Assembly: GCA_021030905.1 (NCBI GenBank)
Contig: JAGFMI010000010.1
Span: forward strand, 744,001 to 808,000
DNA: 64,000 bases
Reading direction: 5' to 3'
Source of the DNA: Pyrenula massariospora
Taxonomy: Eukaryota; Ascomycota; Eurotiomycetes; Pyrenulales; Pyrenulaceae
Positions within the stretch are counted from its first letter, which is position 1; each line of letters opens with the position of its first letter. The position numbers were made by a program, and so were the translations under genes. Below the pieces are notes generated by a model. The model made no database searches. It was not told the DNA's origin and worked only from the letters and a program-made list of their open reading frames with translations. This document shows positions 982-45,754 of this stretch, piece by piece.

Positions 982-1843
982 TCATGCCGACATTTGATAG
1001 TACCTTACGGAGGCTAGGACGTCGAGGTCATTCTCGGCCCCGGAGTCATCGATTTTGGCACGCTTGGATTTGTAACGCCTAGGTTTCGAATCGACATCTG
1101 GAGCATTCTCTGTACCTTTCTTAGCATCTTCGGGGAGGTGGATATAATAGAGCTTTACGAACTTTGAGTCTCCACATAGGAATTGTAAGAATTAGTGAAT
1201 ATTGAATCTGTAGGATTTTCCACATCTCTCTTAACAGCATTCCGCTCATAGTAGCTATCGCTGAACCTTTGATCTGGTTCATAGTAGGTGTTCTGCATAC
1301 CTCTCTTAGGCCGTTCAGGGAGCTGCGGATGGTCATTGCGAACGAGGTATTTCGAACCCACGACATTTTCTGTCTCCCTCTTAGCATGTTCGGGGAGTTG
1401 ATCATCACAATAAAATGTACCGTCAAGGGGCAGACCCGCAACATTGTCCTTTTCATTGTCCTGGCCTTCAATACGCTTGCTGACAGTCTAGCGGGAATGT
1501 CATTATCTTTATATTTGACAGTACGTAGGATTGCTTAAAAGAGTTCAAAGAGGAAATTTCATAGGCTGGAAAAAGAAAACAGAGGGGGAATTGGATGATG
1601 TTTGAACAATTGGGTTACAGACATGGCCGAATCTCTTGAAATAGTAGTCTTTGGGTGAGCTCTCAGCTACTACGGCTTTGAGCGCGTCGAGGGCCTAGGT
1701 GCAAAGAACATATGCTTGTGAGAGAAAATAGTGTCAGAGAAATGAACAGGTGTTAGACTCACAGCGGAAGGCATTGTGGGAAAGGAAAGCACTGCAGTGC
1801 TTGCGGCTAGCATAATGGCCATGGAGGTGGTAAGGCCGTACAT
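982..1843 (-). CDS. Secreted Kex2-processed repeat precursor, likely fungal RiPP (dikaritin-type) precursor peptide
   Basis: Exons inferred on the minus strand: 1763-1843, 1623-1694 and 1155-1487, giving 161 residues with stop at 1155-1157. Exon 1 encodes a signal peptide (hydrophobic MAIMLAASTAVLSFP). Lys-Arg kexin sites fall at residues 47-48, 55-56, 87-88, 112-113 and 137-138, the last three exactly 25 residues apart. Each site is preceded by an aromatic segment (DYYFKR; TFYCDDQLPEHAKR; SKYLVRNDHPQLPERPKR; SYYERNAVKR) and the last three are followed by a short xxEN or xxQN stretch. UstA-like precursors of ustiloxin, asperipin and phomopsin share this plan: signal peptide, KR-flanked repeats, Tyr-containing cores. 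Two UstYa-family genes lie about 5.3 kb away. A further repeat ending LPEDAKK lies past the stop in another frame, down to a TGA at 982-984, so the 3' end may be spliced or frameshifted. The second donor (GTCTGT) is weak. No homolog search was possible. Confidence 0.72.
1227..1376 (-). repeat. Two exact-period 75-bp coding repeats inside the precursor
   Basis: Lys-Arg codon pairs sit at 1377-1382, 1302-1307 and 1227-1232 (plus-strand coordinates), spaced exactly 75 bp. A related Lys-Lys site at 1117-1122 lies 110 bp further on, which breaks the frame. Bases just before each pair are related (plus strand: ttagcatgttcggggag, ttaggccgttcagggag, ttagcatcttcggggag), so the units are diverged tandem duplications rather than chance dibasic sites. 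Confidence 0.75.
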
Positions 1844-4800: not shown

Positions 4801-4947
4801 ATCGATAGCGTCGTACAAATCATAGAGGCCCCCGGTGCGAAGCCTCGTACTGTTTAAAAGGTGTAATACGGAGTTTTCTGTACTTGTTCCATCCTTCTGT
4901 AGAGCTCAACTATCTCAAATTCGAAGTAACACCGCATCCTGTCAACG
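1844..4947. other. Gene-poor stretch with one degenerate coding fragment
   Basis: About 3.1 kb between the precursor promoter and the ZZ-like gene. Apart from the minus-strand fragment listed at 2931-3239 I see only short frames that I cannot assign. A plus-strand frame near 3772-3918 reads like protein (FEWIPRELYPIFFGVL) but has no start or continuation I can support. It may be a relic exon. Confidence 0.4.
2931..3239 (-). pseudogene. Unrecognised protein fragment with one in-frame stop
   Basis: A minus-strand frame starting with ATG at 3239 runs 103 codons to a TAA at 2931, broken once by TGA at 3165-3167. The part after the stop has protein-like composition, with segments such as KPRFFQPGRGALVTDPMLSL and AIDMIPACYVLLHDFLQ. 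I do not recognise the family. It could be a pseudogene, one exon of a spliced gene, or a chance open frame. It lies between the precursor and the ZZ-like gene, so it may be a decayed member of the same locus. Confidence 0.3.
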
Positions 4948-6161
4948 ATGGCAGCTGTTCAAGGCACACCTGCAGGTCTGGCGCATGTACAATCAGTTGG
5001 AAAGTACACTCCAGCTCCGCTCAATGGCACTCCAATGAATCATCACGGTCAGCAGAGCCAAGCCCAGGGACAGTATCAAGTTCCATTTGTATCATTTGAA
5101 GCGTCTAAAGACCAGAAGTACACGCAGTACACTCAGATTGTTCTCAGCAAAGGCACAGCAGCAAATCACGTCGTCGCTCACTGCGATGTTTGCTCTACAG
5201 CGTCATGGGACCCAGAAGGGAACTATACTCAACTTTATCAATGCCAAGATTGTGACGAACGGTTCCTCTGCGATCCGTGCGCGCGAGATGTTATACGGGA
5301 TAATTCCGATATACATGGCGCAGACCATAAATTGAAGCCATACTTCCAACTCGCCCGGCTAGACTACGACATTCCGGCGGCTGTCTCCGATCCAAACCTC
5401 GGCGTATTCAAGGTCGGCGCCGTCGACGAAGAAGACGTCGAGGACTTGATCGATAAAGTGTGGTTCTATCCACCGAAGCCTACACAGTCCCGGACGGTGC
5501 GCTGTCTTCTGCCAGCTCCTCCCGGGCAATACCTTCTCACTGCCACTATCTCCGTCTCCACAAGCCATGCGGAAGACGAAGACTACCTCGAACGCCTGGT
5601 TGGCAAGGTGATGCCGAAAACGCAAAGCTTAGGGTCGGTCCGGATGGCTGCCCGTCCACTCGCCGCGCAATACTATCCACTGCGTGATACAACTGGCCTT
5701 CAGGCTAAGGGTATTTCCGCCAAGCCCATCGAATGGTCGGTTCTCAAATCAAAGACTCGCAAAAGAGACGAAAAGGTCAAGCTTGGGTATCTACTGGTGG
5801 GACCTGGAAGCAATTGCGTGGAGGTTATATTTCAGGACAGTTATGACGAGTCGAGTTGCGTTAGTCACCGGCCCTTTAAATGGAAGATCTCTAATATCAG
5901 GTAAGCCATGAGTGGGACCGTTGGGCGTAGGTCACTGAATGTAGATATAGACTTTCTTCCGAGACTCCGCCGGTTCAGCTTGCAAACAAGGGACAAATCA
6001 TGCAGGCACAACAAGTTAACAAAGACCGCAAGCAACAAGAGTGGCAGGACCGCTTTGATAAGTTCCAGCAATACCAAGACTTCCGCAAAGAGCAAAAGCA
6101 AGCATCCGGAAAGGTTGCTCAGAAAGCTCGCATTATGCCAGCTTCACCAAAGCTACATTAA
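4948..6161 (+). CDS. ZZ-like zinc-binding domain protein with Gln/Lys-rich C-terminal helix
   Basis: Two exons, 4948-5900 and 5951-6161, joined by a 50-bp GTAAGC...ATAG intron that restores frame (phase 2); 387 residues. Near residues 77-125 a Cys pattern (HCDVC, then CQDC, then CDPC, followed by His residues in HGADH) resembles a ZZ-type or related treble-clef zinc finger, a fold usually used for protein contacts. The end of exon 2 is rich in Gln, Lys and Asp (for example QQVNKDRKQQEWQDRFDKFQ) and should be helical or coiled-coil. The middle has no domain I can name. The start has a reasonable context and no upstream ATG in frame. It lies between the peptide precursor and the UstYa pair but has no feature tying it to peptide maturation. 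Confidence 0.75.
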
Positions 6162-7182: not shown

Positions 7183-8049
7183 CTACGGCGTCAACTCAGT
7201 CTTCTCCGTCTCTCTCCAATCTGTTACTTCGTTTTGAATAGCCCAATCCAAGATCTTGTCATAGTTTCGGCATCGATGGGTCGTCTCCATGTTCAACATC
7301 CATTTTTGAAGGCCAGTGTTCCATCGCCAGTAAATGGTGCCAATATTCCCACCGCACATCAAACCTTGGCGAAGACGGTCGATACAGTGATCTTTTCAAA
7401 ATCAGTGTGGAAGTGATGGAAAATCAGGGATGAGACTCATACTGTGGTGAATGCTCCTCCTATCGTCCCGCGTTCCATTGGGTTGGAAAATGGCATAGTC
7501 GGGAAAACGTTCAGGCCAGAGGCTCTTCCGTAAGGAGTTCAAACAGTGAATTTGGTGGAAGACCTAGCCCAAGAGTACCTTAGAGTGTGCCGCATATGGA
7601 CTGTAAACAAAGGACTATATTGTTACCTCGAGCGTGATCAGACCCTCGCCTGTATCATGATATGACACGGTTTTGTTTGGTAGCCGACGAGCTGAGGCAG
7701 CATCAACCTTAGTAGTGCTTGTGTGTCTATATAGTTGACTCCACAGCTCGTCTTTCAAGTCGTCCGGTTCACCCTGATACGGAGATTCTTCATAGACATT
7801 GTCGTAGAATACGACATCCTCGTATTCAACCACCGAGTTTGCTGGTGAATAGACTCCAAGGCTCGGGTCATATGTCCACTTGTAGGCCCAGAAGGCAATT
7901 GCTAAAAGAAAGGCATTCAGAACGTAAAGACTGAGGACATGATATTTTTCCCGCCGAAGCCTTCTCGTCAGCTCCTGTTCGTACTGACGAATGCTGTTGC
8001 TATTATTGCTTTCATGAAGAAGGCTCACCTGGTCATCCTCTTTGTTCAT
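7183..8049 (-). CDS. UstYa-like (DUF3328) oxidase, gene A
   Basis: Exons 7627-8049, 7443-7563 and 7183-7391 (introns 63 and 51 bp, phases 0 and 1); 250 residues. The N-terminus is cytosolic-like, followed by one membrane helix around residues 40-55 (LSLYVLNAFLLAIAFWAYKW). The lumenal part has the family segment SPANSVVEYEDVVFYDN and then SPYQGEPDDLKDELW. Two HxxHC motifs are visible: HQIHC at the start of exon 2 and HHNHC across the exon 2/3 junction, followed by IDRLRQGLMC. UstYa proteins catalyse oxidative cyclisation or related oxidations of ribosomal peptides, and the two His/Cys motifs are thought to form the active site. It is divergent from a second copy at 8555. All exons remain open and both HxxHC motifs are intact, so the gene looks functional. 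Confidence 0.9.
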
Positions 8050-8554: not shown

Positions 8555-9480
8555 ATGCTCTTTTCTGGGCCGACCAAATATCATCTTCTGACACAAAATG
8601 AAAAAGGCCAGGGGAGAAGGAGCAGGCTATGTCACTATTTTGGGTTATACTGGCCCTTCGTCCTCATCCTTTCAACAGCCCCTGCATTCCTCCTAGGGAC
8701 GATTGTTCAAGACTGGCGTGAAACTACAGCGCAGATGCCTCATGATCTGGCGTGGAATCCAGATCTGGAGCTTATGAAAACAAGATGGATCAAGTTTCAA
8801 GGCTCATTCGAATCGAGAAGCCTCTATCGTGGGCTACCGAGTGAAAGTATCGACAACGAATGGGATCGATACACTGCCAACCCCTGGATCGATGGCACGG
8901 CTATAGTTCTTAGTGTTACCGAAGGGGATATCAGGGAGTCGAGGAAAGGTTCCGACGCAGAATGGTTCAACTCAACAGTGGTATTAGATGATGAAAATGG
9001 TGGTGGGTATATGGGGACACTTGAAATCTTTCATCAGTTGCATTGTTTGGTAAGTTCGAATGGCTGGCCGCTAGAACGAAACTGACATAGGAATTGGTCG
9101 AAGAACATGCTGCGAAAACATAGTCATCAAGAATACTACAAAGGCGATAAAAACTTCCACAATCGGGAAATACTGCGAAAGCATGTCGGTATGGGTTTCA
9201 TGTGAAAGAGTTTCATCTCCAAAAGCTACTTTCTAACCATTTCTCCAAACCAGATCACTGTTTAGAGATTATTCGTCAAGTATTGATGTGTTCTGGCGAT
9301 ACAGGCTTGATCACATTCCACTGGGTAAAAGATAATCCAGTTCCTTACCCAGATTTCAACACATGGCATAAATGCCGGGACCCAGAGCAGATCTTGGAAT
9401 GGGGCCATGTCCATAAAGCACCGGTGATTCGTCGTTTTGAGAAGCCTGACGACGCTGTGGAGATGCCGATGGCTCCATGA
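8555..9480 (+). CDS. UstYa-like (DUF3328) oxidase, gene B
   Basis: Exons 8555-9049, 9104-9188 and 9254-9480 (introns 54 and 65 bp, phases 0 and 1); 268 residues. A membrane helix lies near residues 32-50 (YWPFVLILSTAPAFLLGTIV). HxxHC motif one is HQLHC at the end of exon 1, continued across the splice as LNMLRKHSHQEYY. Motif two is HVDHC, made by joining exons 2 and 3, followed by LEIIRQVLMCSGDTGLITF. Splicing was chosen so that both motifs stay in frame; the second exon begins at an AAG acceptor after GAATTGGTCG. The start at 8555 places the helix at the usual distance from the N-terminus. It probably acts with gene A on the secreted precursor at 982-1843, as paired UstYa/UstYb proteins do in ustiloxin biosynthesis. 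That link is inference. Confidence 0.9.
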
Positions 9481-10224
9481 GTCTAAGGGTAGTTGCTCAA
9501 CGTCCGAGACTAACGCTTCGGCTATCATCGAATAGGATGCTCATACTCAATTGAGGGCCTTCATTCGCGTCAATGTGAAATGATGTCGGAGACCGTTCAT
9601 GGTCCTCTGCTTCATTGGGTTTTCAGGAAGCGTAATGGGACGTAGACTTTTGGAAACAAGCGCTCTGTCAAATGTGTTATCAATCAATGGAAGATCCTAC
9701 GAGAAGATTTCTCGCATCATAGCTCCTGAAGAGGTTCATTAGGTGCAAAGAAGAAAGCCCTAGTTCACAGAAACTATTTACGACACCAACCGGGCCTAGA
9801 TTCTGCCTTACAATTTGCTATGCTGAGCTAAGTCGAGACACGACTACATCAGTGATCAGGCTGAAAACATGGATTGGACAATAGCGGTAACGTTTGTGTT
9901 ATCGCATAGACGCGTGGCTTGTCGGCGGGCCGTAGTATGGCGCAGGGAGGCTTCCTCGTTGAAAGTCGCAGCACGGGCCAGGGCCCGTGTGTTGGGGCTC
10001 AACTCGGAAATGGAGCGATTAGATGGATAGGGACTTCCGACCGCCGACCCCTGCCAAGCTACTCCTGTCAATCCCCTTGACCACGATAGCTACGTGTTTG
10101 TGGGCCTTTCGAATGTGGGTTGCCTTTTTCGTCTCGTATCTCTTCTGAGGTTTTTACATTTCTATCACTTGAATTCCCGTGAATTGACCGCCATCACCGT
10201 CAAGCCGCCCTCTTTCTGCGTGCT
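9481..10224. other. Intergenic, promoter of the metallopeptidase-like gene
   Basis: 744 bp without a supported gene. A minus-strand frame at 9856-10071 shows no domain. The stretch holds the terminator region of UstYa-like gene B and the upstream region of the secreted protein at 10225. Confidence 0.5.
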
Positions 10225-11362
10225 ATGAATACTTTCTTGCTCCTTTTGCTTCCAACGCTCTCCGCTGCAAGCACGTACCCAGACCCTGCTACTTACTGGA
10301 TAGATGAGTCATGTAACCGTTTCGATTCGTATTTTCAAGATGCTTTCGACGATGCCCTGAGGTGGGCAAGCAGAGGCAGCCAACGACTGGTGAATTTGAC
10401 AGACACGTTGCAAGAGCGCTATTTCGAACTGCTCTTTTCGCCAACGGGAAGCCAAGGGCAACCTCAATATGAAGAGCGTGTTAGGAATGTGACACGTCAG
10501 TGGAAAGTCCTGCATCTAGAATTGTAATTCTAAGCCCTCTGATAAACTCTAGGGGTTCTTGGGTACCCTCCTCTGGAGCCTGGCATTTCGGGAATGGTGC
10601 GAGAGCGAACCAACAAGCGGACTCAAGCAAATTTTCGGATTTATTGTGACAACGATCCCCACGATCCAGCTTTAGGTAGTACCTCAAGATGGAGAATCAG
10701 GAGAGATCCTCCGGAAAGCGAGCGACCTCCTCGGTATAAACCGCAAAGAGATCGCCGTCCCTTTTCCGATCCTCAACGACTAGTTGGAGAACCATATCAG
10801 GAATGGGAAGACTCCGAAAATGGAATAATAAAGTTTGGAGAAGGCTGTGGACGGCACACTTTATTTGCTCAGACGTATACAACGATGACACCTGGCAAGT
10901 CGCCTGACCAGAATGGGTTGAGAGCCACAATTACGGTCGGTCAGGAATTTTCACATCTTTGGACCCGCTGACTATAGCCCCTTCGGTGTTAGTTCTGCGA
11001 TTCTCTGTTCAATCAAAATTGGCCTCGTAGCCTCGAATTTCTCGACCCCTGGCTTGATTTTACAAAATTACCTTTCCGGGATCAAGCTGGACACATGCGC
11101 CCCCCGATCGACATTTTCTCCGAAATAACCACCTTCACTATCTTGCACGAGGTTCTTATTCCTACCACTGCAATTTCCATATTGTTCTTATATTGATACC
11201 CATACTTTAGATGTGTCATTTACCTCCCTGGCGTCGTAAGTCCAACTTCCAATTCTACTGTCGTAGTCTAACCGTCATCACACCTTGTTTTGAATAGACC
11301 TGATATTCACTTATCGCCTTCCTAATCATCTCCTCCTTACGGCTCTAACCATCAAAATATAG
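10225..11362 (+). CDS. Secreted metallopeptidase-like protein (HEMCH motif)
   Basis: Inferred exons 10225-10495, 10553-10935, 10993-11151, 11211-11235 and a last exon from about 11298. A signal peptide (MNTFLLLLLPTLSAAST) opens the protein. Exon 1 continues with TYWIDESCNRFDSYF and an Asp/Ala-rich helix; exon 2 has FRIYCDND and FAQTYTTM; exon 3 has IDIFSEITTFTILHE. A phase-0 intron then joins LHE to MCHLPPW, creating HEMCH, a zincin HExxH motif. This layout resembles fungal secreted proteins related to M35/lysine-specific metallo-endopeptidases, but the match rests on motif and order only. The fourth exon is only 25 bp, and the 3' end (stop at 11362) is uncertain because downstream splice options exist. 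It could be a terminally decayed copy. It sits beside the UstYa pair, but a role in peptide maturation is not shown. Confidence 0.6.
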
Positions 11363-11910
11363 TTCTAGACCATTGGTCCCCCTTTGACAGGCGCTCGAGA
11401 GCATACAGCTGGAGGTCCATTATCAACTTACACCGAGACCTCAAACCCACGAATGTGAGCAACTACGTATACTTCTCCCTACTAGCCCGTCTCGCAGATC
11501 GCGGTTTTCGTTTAAGCACGGACGAATTGTGGGCATATTTTGGGGTCCTTGAACGTATCTAGCGAGTTTATTTGTTACTATAGTTTTGAAATGAATGGAC
11601 CTGAACTTTGAAGGATGACCTACTATTTGTTGATAGAGATATCGAGACTCCTGCGGCGGGATCAAGATCTCAGCATAGGAAGTCAGTCTCTAGTGGAGAT
11701 GTGGCCGGCTAAGCACGAGCCTGAAGTCGTTGAAAGCGCTAGAGCTCTCAAAACGCCGATCTATATACACTAATCATCCTATCCCCGCTCCTAAGCTCCC
11801 ATACAGAACCTAAATAGACCACACCAACAAACCATAAGAATAGAAAAACCCACCCTCACACGTCCCTCGAACACGCCCCATTGTCTATCCCCTCCCCAAC
11901 CGCCAACCCA
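11363..11910. other. Intergenic between two 3' ends
   Basis: 548 bp. It may contain the true last exon of the metallopeptidase-like gene. The frame near 11391-11455 (reading through a TAG near 11361) is a candidate but I cannot fix it. Nothing else recognised. Confidence 0.4.
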
Positions 11911-14458: not shown

Positions 14459-15916
14459 TCATAGCTCCAAGCTTGCCATCCCTATATGCCCACTGTGGTC
14501 TCCCTCAAACCCGGCCTCGCACTTCCTTGCCATCTCCATCGGCCACACCATCGCCCACTGCCACTCTCTTGGCACAATCTGCTGTATCCTTTTGACCTCC
14601 CTCACTGCATTCTCGTGAGAGCACCAGAAATGTCTGATGAGGGTATTCATTGCAAAAAAGTGGGCAATTATGACCAGCGCTCGTGGCCGCAGCTCTTCGA
14701 GGTTTTCAACAAATCGTCTAGGGGACAAGGTGCCAAAGCCAACAAGCCGTCTACCATTCCAGCTGTCGGGTTCTCCTTCTATAATCCGCTGATATATATA
14801 TCCTAAGCAGCCTAATACAGCATTATACGCTTGGATCGATTCTTCATCGCGGTCTAGCTCTTCTGGACCGCCGGGGAATTCAAGGATCGGCGTGAAAGGA
14901 CCTGCATTTTTTTCATTAAATATATGCCCGGCAGCGCGTGTGAAATCTGGTTTGGAATGGATGAGATAGTTATATGAGGCGTTTGGCGCGAGCATCGGCC
15001 TGGCGATTCGAATGATACCGGCAAGCGAGTGCAGCAGTCTTAGCCAGTGGAAATCGTCTAATTGTTGTGTTGGGTCTGGCAGTAGACGAAAGGACTGCAT
15101 CGCGATCAGGCTGCCGCAGAAACAGATGGCACAGGCATTGTCTGGGCTGATGTTGGCGAGCGCCGCGCGCTTTTGGCGGATGGCAAGGTTGAGGTAGACA
15201 CGATGGGCTTTTCCAAGAGTGCCGAGGGACACACTGTGTGCTCTTGGCGAGGAAGTTGGCGAATCGGGATGTTGGAGAGAGTCTCGAAACCGAACCTCGG
15301 AGTCGCCGGGCTCGCTCATTGCGGCCATGTGGAGGGCTGAGATGGCGAGGAGGGTGTTGTGCAAGAAGTCGAAGCGGAATGCAAGCTCGAAGACATCGAC
15401 AACCCAGGTGTGTTTGACCTGAGGATCCTCGATGGACGGGAATGTGTAGATTACTTCAGTAACGAAGTGGTGCAGCAGCTTTGCCTCGAGGAGTCTCCTC
15501 TCCCGCGTCTCGGAGAGCAAATCTCCCTCTTCGACATTGTCGTAAGGTGTGGCAACAGAGGTCACCGATGGGGACTTTGCCCTTGAGCCAGTACTCACTG
15601 TGTCGATACTTGGCACCGTGATTCGATCCTGCTTGAACGTGGGCACTTGAGGGGTTGGGTAGATGCATCGAACTTGGTGTCTTTGACAAGATCCACACTC
15701 TGGCTGGGCCTTTTGCCAAATTCAGTCAACAGTTGCCCTTTTCTGCAATCAGTGTACCTACCTCGTCACATTTGACTTTCCGGGATTTGCACCGTATGCT
15801 GGTGTGTCGCGTTAACACACGGCTCAGGGTACCGAGTAAGAAGATGCTTACCAACCGTTGCGAGACTTTTTGTGAGCCAGCCTCGGGGGCATCCTGTGCC
15901 GCTTGATGGCCGTCAT
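14459..15916 (-). CDS. Zn2Cys6 (C6) fungal transcription factor
   Basis: Exons 15852-15916, 15762-15798 and 14459-15709; introns 53 and 52 bp; 450 residues. Splicing assembles a canonical binuclear cluster near residues 22-50: CIRCKSRKVKC, then CGSCQRHQVRC, spaced Cx2Cx6Cx6Cx2Cx6C. The rest resembles fungal C6 regulators of the sterol-uptake/Upc2-like type: a central segment LLHHFVTEVIYTFP, then WVVDVFELAFRFDFLHNTLL and AISALHMAAM, and a long helical C-terminal half. No DNA target can be read from sequence. It is the only specific regulator near the UstYa/precursor genes, about 5 kb from gene B, so it is a candidate cluster regulator, but it could equally be unrelated. All three exons are intact. 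Confidence 0.9.
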
Positions 15917-16947
15917 TAACGCTCGTCTCGCGGTCTCCTTTTAATGGCGGTGACAAGCAATGCCCTTTCCGCCTTCGCCAAGACGGAGCTGAGCGTAGAG
16001 ACTCAGCCTTGCGGCGATGGTAAACGCGTACTGGAGCAGGGAGAAGGGCTGACGACGTCGTCTTAGGTAAGTGGTGGTGAGATGTCAAATTCCAAGCTTA
16101 AACAAAAGCCTCAACGGTGACAAATACCTTATATATCGCAGATGTACGACGTCGACGGCCATCTCGTACCTTGTGCGAAGGCAGCGAAAGCGACCTCCGA
16201 GAGCGAGCTCGAGTCAAGCACTGAGCCTAACCGTATACTGACTGTGCATAGCCATACCCCCACAACACCTCATGTGAAGTTGGGAAAGGGAGTCATGGCT
16301 AACCCAATACTAACCCGTTAAACCGTTTGGGAAGGATTTAAGCCTGACGGGTGATGGACACGTCCGCTGGCACCGACAGCCCTAATGGGGCCAAAAAGGG
16401 CCATCCGGCGAGTTCCACCACCAAACCAGCGTGTCCTTGCACCACGAGGCAACGCTTACCTACGACAAGTGCGCATCTTTCGGGTTGGCTCACACTTTAA
16501 CCTCGTCAAACACGTGTTGTGACTGGACCGTCTTACGACACCCCGAATAAGGTTAATTTAAACGAGCACGTTTCGAGGAAGGACTGGCAGCGTCATAGTT
16601 TGAATGATCCTTTAAGGCTGAATCGCACCACCACTAAGGAGATCGCCTCTACCCTATGGAACATTCTTACTGAGACCCCCAGCCTTGGCACAACAGCCCA
16701 ATTTAGGCGTACAGTGCTTCACCACCAAACCCATTAAAAACGCAGAGAGACCATGAAAACCTTTCTGAGATTGACTCCGCCACCATGCAAGATTAGAGCC
16801 ACCGTGCCACTTGCCAGTGAGAATTTTATTCAAAAAAAGATACATTTACATGGTATCATGGTGGTGAGGATTGACCCCGATGAAACAAAGATTCTGTACA
16901 ATGCAGAGGACGAACGCAACGATCCGTGATCCAAAACGGCCCCACGG
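15917..16947. other. Promoter side of the C6 regulator; no gene seen
   Basis: About 1 kb between the start of the C6 regulator and the 3' end of the EGF-domain gene. The frames at 16519-16737 plus and 16654-16845 minus overlap and show no domain. Nothing else recognised. Confidence 0.5.
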
Positions 16948-40707: not shown

Positions 40708-42736
40708 ATGTCGCAAGTCATTGTCCATGACTTTGGCAGTGAAGAGACTGAGAAGTCAAGAAAAACCCCACCTCCGGTACAGGTTCAACAACCTGCTTCC
40801 CACAGCTCTGAAGCCAAGACTCTCGGTGTCTTCACAAACCCCTTTCCCCCTTCGATGACCTCGTCCACGTCGACGTCTAGGGATTCGACACCTCCCGACA
40901 GTCCGCACAAGGGAGCACCTTACGACCACGTTGAAACCCACAATTGGGACGGCCCTAATGATCCAGAAAATCCGTACGCATCCTCTTTTTCGTCCGAAAT
41001 CCCGGGCTCACAATCGTCTACAGATTCAATTGGTCCTTGAAGTACAAATGGTTCCTCACTATCACAGTCTGCTTTATGTATGCTACCGAGTCCCACCTTT
41101 CCGCTGTGCACCAAACAATAACAATCAAAGCTCTATTTTGACAGGGATACCGGCGGGTTCATACGGCTCTGGAAACACATACATGGCAGAGAGGTTCCAT
41201 GTTCAGAATGAGCCTTTTCCTAACCTGTATTGGGCTACGGCTTCTTGGAACGTTGGAGCAGCGTTATTTCCTTTAGTATTTGTCCCTCTGACTGAGAACA
41301 CTGGTCGGATGCCAGGGTATTTTGTAAGTCACTACTATTATGCCAATGAAACCCATTCTTACTCTTTAGGTCGCGTACATCATCTTTGAGCTTCTATTGT
41401 TTGGATCTGCCTTCGCTCAAAACTTTGCCACCCTTGTAGTGACCAGGTTCTTTGGTGGTGGAGCATCTTCGGTGGCGATCAACATCGTCGGCGGCTCAAT
41501 TAGCGACGTCTGGCGAGGGGATAAGGCGAGGTCTCTCCCCATGTCACTGTTCGGACTCACAAGTGTCGTTGGCATTGCGCTTGGTCCATTCATTGGCTCC
41601 GCGATCCAGACGCTGGACAGGCCATCTCCGTGGCGCTGGTGAGAGACCCATCCGTATGAGATTCCGATGTCTCACTTACCTTCACAACAGGATTTACTAT
41701 ATTCAAATTCTATACAACGGAGCCTTGATCCCCGTTTTCTACCTAATTCTCTCAGAGACTCGAGGTGATGTTATCCTTGCTCGTCGTGCAGGGCGCCTCC
41801 GCAAATCCACCGGGCGACCGATATATGCACCCTCAGAGCTTCAGCGTTCCAGCATCATAGACGACATCAAGACTTCGTTCAAGCGTCCAACCAAGATGCT
41901 GATTACGGAGCCGGTCGTCCTCTTCTTCACACTTTGGGTCAGCTTCGCCTGGGGCATTCTTTTCCTATTCTTCAGCAGTGTTGCGCAGACCTTTAGCCAC
42001 AACTACGGATTCGACACATTCCAGACTGGGCTCATCCAGCTAGCGATCTCGGTTGGCGCTCTGGTTGGGACGATCGTCAACCCCTTCCAGGATCGACTCT
42101 ACCTACAGTCGGCCGCAAGGAATAGCGAGCGGCCCGGCCGTCCCATTCCGGAGGCAAGGCTGTACACTGCGATACCGGGCAGTCTTTTATTCACAGTGGG
42201 GCTTTTCTGGTATGGGTGGAGCTCTCAACCGAGCGTGCATTGGATGGTTCCGACGTGTGGTATTGCAGTAAGTATTACTTCCCGCAGTGTCTGAGACGAA
42301 ACTCACATTCTACAGGTCGTGGGTCTTGGTATCTACTCTATCTATCTGGGCGTTGTGAATTATCTGACCGATGCCTATGAGAAAGTAAGTATCAGTATCA
42401 GCACCTTAAGTCTATCTCTTTTCCCCTACAAATTACGTAAGTTACAATCTCATGTGCTAACAGCCCTCACAGTTTGCGGCATCCGCCCTTTCGGCCGCGT
42501 CCCTAGGAAGAAATACGTTCGGGGCTTTCCTTCCACTAGCCTCCTATTCGCTGTTCGTGAACCTAGGATACGGATGGGCCGGCACGCTGCTGGGATTTGT
42601 GGGCGCTCTGCTGAGTGTCGTTCCCGTTGTGCTGGTGATCAAGGGAAAGGAGATCAGGAAGAAGAGTCCCTTCATGAGGGAAGCGGTGTTTGAGGAACGG
42701 GAAAGGGAGGAGAGGAGGGAGAGTTTAGGAGCTTAA
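40708..42736 (+). CDS. MFS transporter (DHA1/polyamine-type)
   Basis: Seven exons: 40708-40973, 41024-41077, 41131-41323, 41370-41638, 41691-42267, 42316-42384 and 42473-42736; 563 residues. All joins keep phase; exon 2 ends in a GTATGC donor and exon 3 starts after ATCAAAG, restoring CFISILTGIPAGSYGSGN. The N-terminus is a Ser/Pro/Thr-rich cytosolic tail leading to NPFNWSLKYKWFLTITVCF, a common start of fungal DHA1 drug:H+ antiporters. Family motifs include the intracellular loop around VVTRFFGGGASSVAINIVGG, SDVWRGDKAR and SETRGDVILARRAGRLRKST. Twelve helices are expected. The C-terminal tail is Glu/Arg-rich. Substrate unknown; relatives export drugs, polyamines or secondary metabolites. No biosynthetic gene adjoins it closely. 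Confidence 0.92.
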
Positions 42737-44319: not shown

Positions 44320-45754
44320 ATGCTGACCACAACTACAACATCTACCCTTGAGTCTGTCCGTTACCCTTCAGACTCGAGAGGGGCGGAGCTGAAGCCTGCT
44401 GTCACATTCGACTTGAAGCTGCTTTCCGACGAACGCAGCCAAACACTCGGGCATCTCCTTGAAAAAGGCCATGCCTCGGTCATTCCGCTGCGCGAACCGG
44501 ATTTAATGTTTCACAGCCATTTGGCACATGTATGAATACCTCTACTCTAGATTCTCATTATCGTCTTACGCTGTCTAGATCCTCGGCTCAGCGTATAGGC
44601 TTGGTGCCAGCACCAAGCAACTGATTGAGATCTTCGAGCATGAAACTGGAGAAATGGTGAAGCTCGATGAAAGATTCGTCCGTGGCGATGCCATGTCAAG
44701 GAAGACCTGGAGGGATTATCTTCAGAAAAAGCCGTTAGTCACAACACCGCGACAATTATTCTTTGAAACTGACAGGACACAGATATACAGCGGCTTTGGT
44801 CGATTTCTTTGATGAAGAGGTAAAGAAGAACAACAGAGATTGGAAAAATGTTGTCGAAGAATATCTCTATTCTGGAGAGGAACCTCTCGTCAACGGCTTC
44901 ACTGGGGGTGGTATGTCACTTCCGTACATGAAAGCCCATTAAGGAATACTGATACGTCAACAGTGGCTCATCCTTTGATCCACCTTGCCTACGCGTATGA
45001 ATTCCAGAGCAAGGAAGTTGCAACAGAGGCCTTAAGTCTGGCAAGTACCGAGTACAGCGTTTATCATGGTTCGTTAGACCACTATCCTGGGGATAATTCT
45101 ACGTACAAAACCACTTGTCTCGCCGAAATTCTCCAGCACATTCGAGAGGATAAGCGCTTCGATGGCATGTTCACTACTGAAGGCTATGAAAATGTCGTAG
45201 CTTTATCGCATAATATTCCCGAAAGCGTTATCGAGCATTGGAACGCGTGGCAAATCGGGGACCCCGTTCAGCAGCTAGAACGGTTGTGTGACCTGTCGCT
45301 CTTGCTCACGATCAGTACCGGCGGACCGGATACGTCTTTCGATTTCTTCTTCCTTCATACCATGACCTCGGCACATGCTCTCCGACTACTATGGCACCAC
45401 TTCCCCGCGGAGTGGCGCGAACCGATTTTGAGGCAGTGGGCACTCTTCACAATTTCTGTCTACATTTCACAGCTCAGACCTAATTTTGGTCCAGAGAACA
45501 TTAATTCGGTGCAGGTTAATGGGAGGGACTGGCACTGGGTGGCTGACACTGCCTTGAAAAACAGGTTTGCCATGGACAGTCATTTCTTTAAAGGTGTACG
45601 GGCCCCGAGAGCCTTTGGTGAGGCCTTTGGTGAGAAGGATGATTTCTACTTGAAGGCAGTCATCAAGTTCCTTACTGAGTTCAGAGGTTGGGAAGGATTT
45701 GGAGCGGGCGAAAGCGGTGTCGATCAAGGCCACGAACGTTATATCCAACATTGA
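44320..45754 (+). CDS. Questin-oxidase-like (DUF4243, AflY/GedK-type) enzyme
   Basis: Exons 44320-44529, 44579-44733, 44783-44910 and 44964-45754, introns 49, 49 and 53 bp; 427 residues. Family landmarks: HSHLAHILGSAYRLGAS across the first junction, QKKPYTAALVDFFDEE across the second, GFTGGVAHPLIHLAYAYEF across the third, and DFFFLHTMTSAHALRLLW in the last exon. Members catalyse Baeyer-Villiger-type ring opening of anthraquinones such as questin (GedK) or act in the aflatoxin pathway (AflY), without an obvious flavin site. No polyketide synthase is in the window, so the substrate is unknown. The gene looks intact. Confidence 0.86.

Follow-up and report, generated by a model that had tools for sequence, protein, structure and literature searches.

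We found that the feature at 1155-1843 on the minus strand of the window (the whole 64,000-nucleotide stretch that was analysed, C1:744001-808000 of a Pyrenula massariospora assembly of 37.8 Mb in 33 contigs) is real, and that its interpretation as a UstYa-associated gene is plausible. We favour, at a probability of roughly 0.57, a secreted, kexin-processed precursor with diverged units, which would be matured by the neighbouring UstYa pair in a GigA-like manner. The original prediction, a RiPP precursor at 982-1843 on which two nearby UstYa-like genes act, was partly supported. The favoured reading draws on the gene anatomy, repeats in the DNA, Lys-Arg sites and the UstYa pair, and on two features found elsewhere in the genome: a kexin-type P-domain, and UstYa loci with canonical precursors. 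Against it stand the lack of a homologue, the weak similarity of the units, an out-of-frame copy, splices that would remove units, the lack of a nearby tyrosinase or S41 peptidase match and the lack of a shared promoter word. A weak codon-usage test and the position of the best UstYa-B paralogues, at loci without a recognised precursor, also count against it. The precursor locus lies at the left edge of the window (C1:745 kb), and flanks of 30 kb on the left and 10 kb on the right were added to the analysis.

Structure of the Precursor Gene

The spliced model of the minus strand (1843-1763, 1694-1623 and 1487-1155) encodes 161 amino acids, and its exons are in phase. Exon 1 (1763-1843, 27 codons) starts with the ATG at 1843, encodes a leader that is hydrophobic on the Kyte-Doolittle scale (mean 1.93 over its best 12 residues) and ends at a strong GTGAGT donor. 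Intron 1 (1695-1762, 68 nt, GTGAGT...CACCTAG) has good GT-AG signals and, by eye, a CTGAC branch-like site. It is followed by exon 2 (1623-1694, 24 codons), in which the first Lys-Arg site follows Tyr-Tyr-Phe, and by intron 2 (1488-1622, 135 nt, GTCTGT...CGCTAG, phase 0), a phase-compatible pair of sites chosen by hand and less certain than intron 1. Exon 3 (1155-1487) contains 110 intact open codons with Tyr-rich units, Lys-Arg sites at 1478, 1382, 1307 and 1232, and a stop codon at 1157-1155. Precursor expression, splicing and Lys-Arg cutting are predictions from the sequence.

By hand count, the model contains five in-frame Lys-Arg sites, one in exon 2 and four in exon 3, and those at 1382, 1307 and 1232 are spaced exactly 75 nt apart, which confirms the number and spacing originally described. 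Further, the segments TFY, KYL, TYY and SYY and the flanks LPEHAKR, LPERPKR and NAVKR named in the original prediction were all found in the translation. The claimed signal peptide stands as a hydrophobic leader, on a reading that needs both introns (1762-1695 and 1622-1488).

No homologue of the 161-aa model was found among 249 candidates at E ≤ 10, and the model matched no Pfam family at E ≤ 1. A 73-aa piece of the precursor, searched in the genome, matched itself alone. We found no paper on the gene, an absence that carries little weight.

The Units Are Repeated in the DNA Beyond Chance

When 984-1487 was aligned with itself at the DNA level, the best off-diagonal score was 137, compared with a mean of 75.9 (SD 11.4, maximum 103) in 60 dinucleotide shuffles. 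This score exceeded those of all 39 control pieces of equal length from the window, the best of which (133) was inside a low-complexity gene. The best-aligning pair was approximately 1400-1326 with 1140-1061. Thus, 984-1487 contains a repeat at the DNA level beyond chance.

The likeness of the units in protein was weak, with 1-6 of 25 positions identical in ungapped register. Three of the six unit pairs reached p < 0.05 against 1000 shuffles, one unit being typed across the frame change. When 2,875 frames of at least 50 aa were scanned for similarity around their dibasic sites, 111 had a usable triple, and the precursor frame ranked 11th among them. Of the ten rows above it, two looked unrelated, and the other eight came from five canonical precursors, either directly or as shadow frames. 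Further, exon 3 is likewise open in a second frame on its strand, and an open frame at this position is therefore not special. Because the units are weakly alike in protein and the second frame is open, spacing and openness alone prove little, and the DNA repeat is the stronger argument.

When codon usage was learned from eleven long open frames in the window, the exon-3 frame came top of the six frames (0.171 bits/codon); the other two frames of the same strand scored 0.009 and -0.071, and the other five frames together ranged from -0.071 to 0.027. For exon 2, a frame of the opposite strand, which contains a stop, scored higher (0.198) than the own frame (0.179). The test is weak, with control frames reaching 0.143 bits/codon and exon 1 of UstYa-B scoring just 0.084.

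The 3' End of the Precursor

The interval first proposed extended to 982. The repeat frame is real as far as 1155, where it stops, and the rest is open in another frame, so the interval joined two frames. A true further copy of the repeat lies within 984-1162 on the minus strand, in a different reading frame that is open to a stop ending at 984. This change of frame is the main weakness of the proposed interval. The own frame of the copy scored 0.181 in codon usage (no internal stop), compared with at most 0.057 for the other frames. Either a small insertion or deletion has shifted the frame and severed the last unit, or an unusual third intron is present, or the assembly contains an error.

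Among 29 phase-compatible splices of 40-220 nt that would lead into the 3' frame, none paired a full-consensus donor with a pyrimidine-AG acceptor and none was convincing. From a fair donor at 1300 (GTATGC), splicing to either of two YAG acceptors would excise the TYY and SYY units with an intron of 191 or 203 nt. A good donor at 1361 (GTGGGT) would reach two AAG acceptors, and the resulting introns of 200 and 209 nt would each take out three units. We kept a third intron as a possibility because intron 2 of UstYa-A and intron 1 of UstYa-B, as modelled here, also use AAG acceptors. These splices also bear on a different gene model, in which no multi-unit precursor exists, either because some or most units fall within introns or because the open frame as a whole arose by chance. 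Such a model would accommodate the second open frame of exon 3 as well. However, the units in question are exactly where the DNA repeats run and the codon usage scores best, and none of the six introns in the three gene models of the locus (51-135 nt) is as long as these would be. We regard a different gene model as quite improbable.

The out-of-frame copy, whose own frame still looks coding by codon usage, could mark a decaying (pseudogenised) precursor, that is, a formerly working tandem that is now diverged and frameshifted and has left the UstYa pair without a working substrate. The high divergence of the units and the lack of a homologue of the 161-aa model are consistent with decay. In contrast, the leader, the five Lys-Arg sites and the 110 open codons of exon 3 are all intact, as both UstYa genes appear to be, and we consider decay unlikely.

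The UstYa Pair and the Neighbouring Genes

Two UstYa-like genes had been placed 5.3-7.6 kb from the precursor, and spliced models bore this out, giving a head-to-head pair with start codons 505 bp apart. UstYa-A (7183-8049, minus strand; exons 8049-7627, 7563-7443 and 7391-7183) encodes 250 aa with the motifs HQIHC and HHNHC and matched PF11807 (DUF3328) at E 1.4e-42. UstYa-B (8555-9480, plus strand; exons 8555-9049, 9104-9188 and 9254-9480) encodes 268 aa with HQLHC and HVDHC and matched the same family at E 8.8e-52. Both look intact in these hand-made models: each has a pair of HxxHC motifs and is covered by the domain over nearly its whole length. A database search at E ≤ 0.001 gave eight relatives of UstYa-A, led by one from Thozetella with 48% identity.

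We saw one gene between the precursor and the UstYa pair, an open frame at 4930-5904 (limits by eye), which matched no Pfam family above cut-off. Published DUF3328 genes are reported to lie on average 3.09 genes from the precursor gene (PMC7329392). A candidate fungal transcription factor at 14459-16097 (minus strand), with a Zn2Cys6-like motif by eye and a Fungal_trans_2 match under the Pfam cut-off, is a putative cluster member.

No tyrosinase or S41 peptidase match was found near the precursor locus; the sole tyrosinase matches of the contig are at C1:33 kb, and the contig has no S41 match. Among the selected open frames scanned beside the UstYa pair, no transporter or reductase was seen. 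The genome contains one match to a kexin-type P-domain, on contig 9, which is not the contig of the precursor. Shared promoter words did not rise above background (the longest was 10 bp, compared with at least 11 bp in 22 of 107 control pieces), nor did CGG..CCG promoter sites.

The UstYa pair might lie here by chance and act on another substrate, and the precursor would then be secreted and processed by kexin into peptides that stay linear (signalling, surface or effector-like). Chance proximity is possible, since the genome contains 82 exon-level UstYa matches, and no promoter word is common above background. Further, a DUF3328 gene was reported near just 22% of 7,878 published kexin-repeat precursors (PMC7329392), and Agaricomycetes precursors of such a kind are reported to yield detected linear peptides (PMC9769878). 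However, the units are Tyr-rich, the UstYa pair lies within 7.6 kb, and Lys-Arg and dibasic-similarity scans recognised no other precursor-like frame in the window or in loci L009-L012. Pheromone-type precursors, moreover, are described as almost never occurring with DUF3328 genes (PMC7329392). We consider it improbable that the products stay linear.

Proposed Maturation

In the favoured reading, in which the UstYa pair serves the precursor, the leader would direct the protein into the ER, and the kexin of the genome would cut after each Lys-Arg in the Golgi. The freed pieces, most of which have a Tyr-rich cluster, would be trimmed and then oxidatively cross-linked at Tyr by UstYa-A and/or UstYa-B. 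Entry into the ER and kexin cutting most likely follow from the sequence and the known class. We infer the cross-linking, and the action of the UstYa pair on this peptide, from position. A single transcript would yield a range of distinct peptides, as in GigA, since the units differ from one another. Tyr was reported in 65.6% of the repeats of DUF3328-associated precursors, compared with 38.2% of the others (PMC7329392), and ustiloxin B was reported to be barely made without KexB (PMC4740483).

UstYa Loci Elsewhere in the Genome

The UstYa matches were grouped by eye into 43 loci besides the precursor locus. We examined 20 of these by a simple Lys-Arg scan of unspliced frames over 10 kb per locus. 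Clear tandem kexin-site precursors with near-identical units were present at five of the 20 loci (L014, L023, L028, L029 and L032). The scan recognised a precursor at none of the remaining 15, among which L016 gave one row resembling a basic stretch. Among the examined loci, the paralogue with the best single match to UstYa-A was in the precursor-bearing L023 (100 bits; 38% over 137 aa). Those that best matched UstYa-B were in L017, L016 and L015, all without a recognised precursor.

The kexin-repeat precursors near UstYa matches are at L014:2829-3494 (plus strand), L023:5474-5869 (plus), L028:6464-6727 (plus) and L029:3-404 (minus), each with near-identical units, and at L032:6773-7475 (plus), where many near-identical 13-residue units (EYIYND) surround a run of N inside the array. 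At another UstYa locus, an open frame at L020:1378-1959 (plus strand) has tandem units of approximately 15 residues (LGVGPRCVLWAQ-like) and may represent the shadow frame of a different repeat gene. Tyrosinase matches were found within approximately 5 kb at five other UstYa loci of the genome. Within approximately 8 kb of UstYa matches, tyrosinase matches were found at six places (C1:33 kb, C4:510 kb, C7:119 kb, C8:323 kb, C11:2988 kb and C28:1554 kb), which may be dikaritin-type clusters.

Comparison with Known Precursors

Ascomycete alpha-pheromone precursors contain near-identical pheromone repeats. We rejected this identity for the gene at 1155-1843, since its units are diverged, UstYa genes are near and no Pfam family was matched at E ≤ 1.

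GigA, the epichloecyclin precursor of Epichloe, is reported to have imperfect repeats of 27 residues and to yield several different cyclic peptides (PMC7317419, PMC9233826). Likened by description, GigA and the precursor studied here both have a signal or leader sequence, Lys-Arg sites and Tyr in the units, which measure 25 residues here (PMC7317419, PMC9233826, PMC6514808). The GigA cluster is described as four genes including kexB and one DUF3328 gene (same sources), whereas here the sole kexin P-domain is on another contig and two UstYa genes are present. The original prediction had set the diverged units, as a source of several products, apart from classical precursors. This contrast fails, because the epichloecyclins already show that one precursor can give several products (PMC7317419, PMC9233826); the system is not new in kind.

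The asperipin-2a cluster (aprA, aprY, aprT and aprR) resembles the precursor locus in being small and having a UstYa-type oxidase, and tyrosinase is not among the genes listed for it in PMC6514808. The links in asperipin-2a are described as ethers from Tyr side chains to beta-carbons (PMC6514808), and by analogy similar ether chemistry would be expected at the precursor locus. Asperipin-2a is described from one core, whereas the units differ here, and no transporter or reductase was seen among the selected frames scanned beside the UstYa pair.

The locus shares a kexin-cut secreted precursor and UstYa-type enzymes with dikaritins of the ustiloxin and phomopsin type, but differs in having no near tyrosinase or S41 peptidase match. 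Dikaritins have recently been defined by the presence, in their cluster, of a UstYa protein that carries two HxxHC motifs (PMC12048977), which describes the present locus, at locus level only. The older five-gene definition given in that source, with tyrosinase plus a transporter or peptidase, does not, tyrosinase and S41 being the parts searched.

Like Kex2-processed repeat proteins (KEPs; Umemura 2020), the precursor has at least three pieces of at least 8 aa between dibasic sites, the number and length that the survey asked for between Kex2 sites (PMC7329392), here with five in-frame Lys-Arg. The KEP definition also includes an N-terminal signal peptide, for which the precursor offers a leader that is hydrophobic by Kyte-Doolittle score. 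The survey also required per-position repeat scores above 0.6 (PMC7329392), and in our simplified pairwise-identity test the units (1-6 of 25) fell below this value. Since the strict repeat threshold is probably not reached, we do not class the precursor as a KEP in the strict sense, and the survey screen would probably miss it.

The locus is thus of value because it illustrates the sort of precursor probably overlooked by repeat-based mining and, if expressed, would offer a multi-product substrate. The large survey of kexin-repeat precursors is described as relying on closely similar repeats (PMC7329392). Here kinship lies mainly in the DNA and in some Lys-Arg flanks, which suggests a route to finding such precursors. 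If several products arise from one gene, they would provide a natural test of the tolerance of UstYa oxidases. In a recent survey of lichens, UstYa clusters were reported to contain genes for proteins with a signal peptide and Kex2 sites but no conserved repeats, and the identity of the precursor was not decided there (PMC12048977). A bolder proposal, which we put forward tentatively and regard as somewhat doubtful, is that one short precursor yields four or five Tyr-cross-linked peptides of different chemistry through the UstYa pair alone, without tyrosinase, and that units so dissimilar escape repeat-based screens and may explain part of the UstYa genes that appear precursorless.

Other Genes of the Window

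We considered whether a secreted gene at 10183-11562 might encode a cluster peptidase but set this aside: three of its open frames matched no Pfam family at E ≤ 1, the middle one had a single PDB match, at E 0.34, and exon-level matches to the gene recur across the genome. The gene belongs to a family (10183-11562 in the window, L009:4278-5320 and L034:505-1701, all on the plus strand) with a leader-like N-terminus by eye. At least 151 exon-level matches to this family were found in the genome (150 of 163 candidates scored), and the members tried had no Pfam family. Its one database relative at E ≤ 0.001 (35% identity) is from Pyrenula ochraceoflavens, which we take to be a lichen fungus. The expansion of this orphan family may merit separate study. 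Further to the right, a questin oxidase-like gene (PF14027) at 44816-45754 (plus strand) has a transporter-like open frame nearby (41443-42294, by eye), and the region is possibly another metabolite locus.
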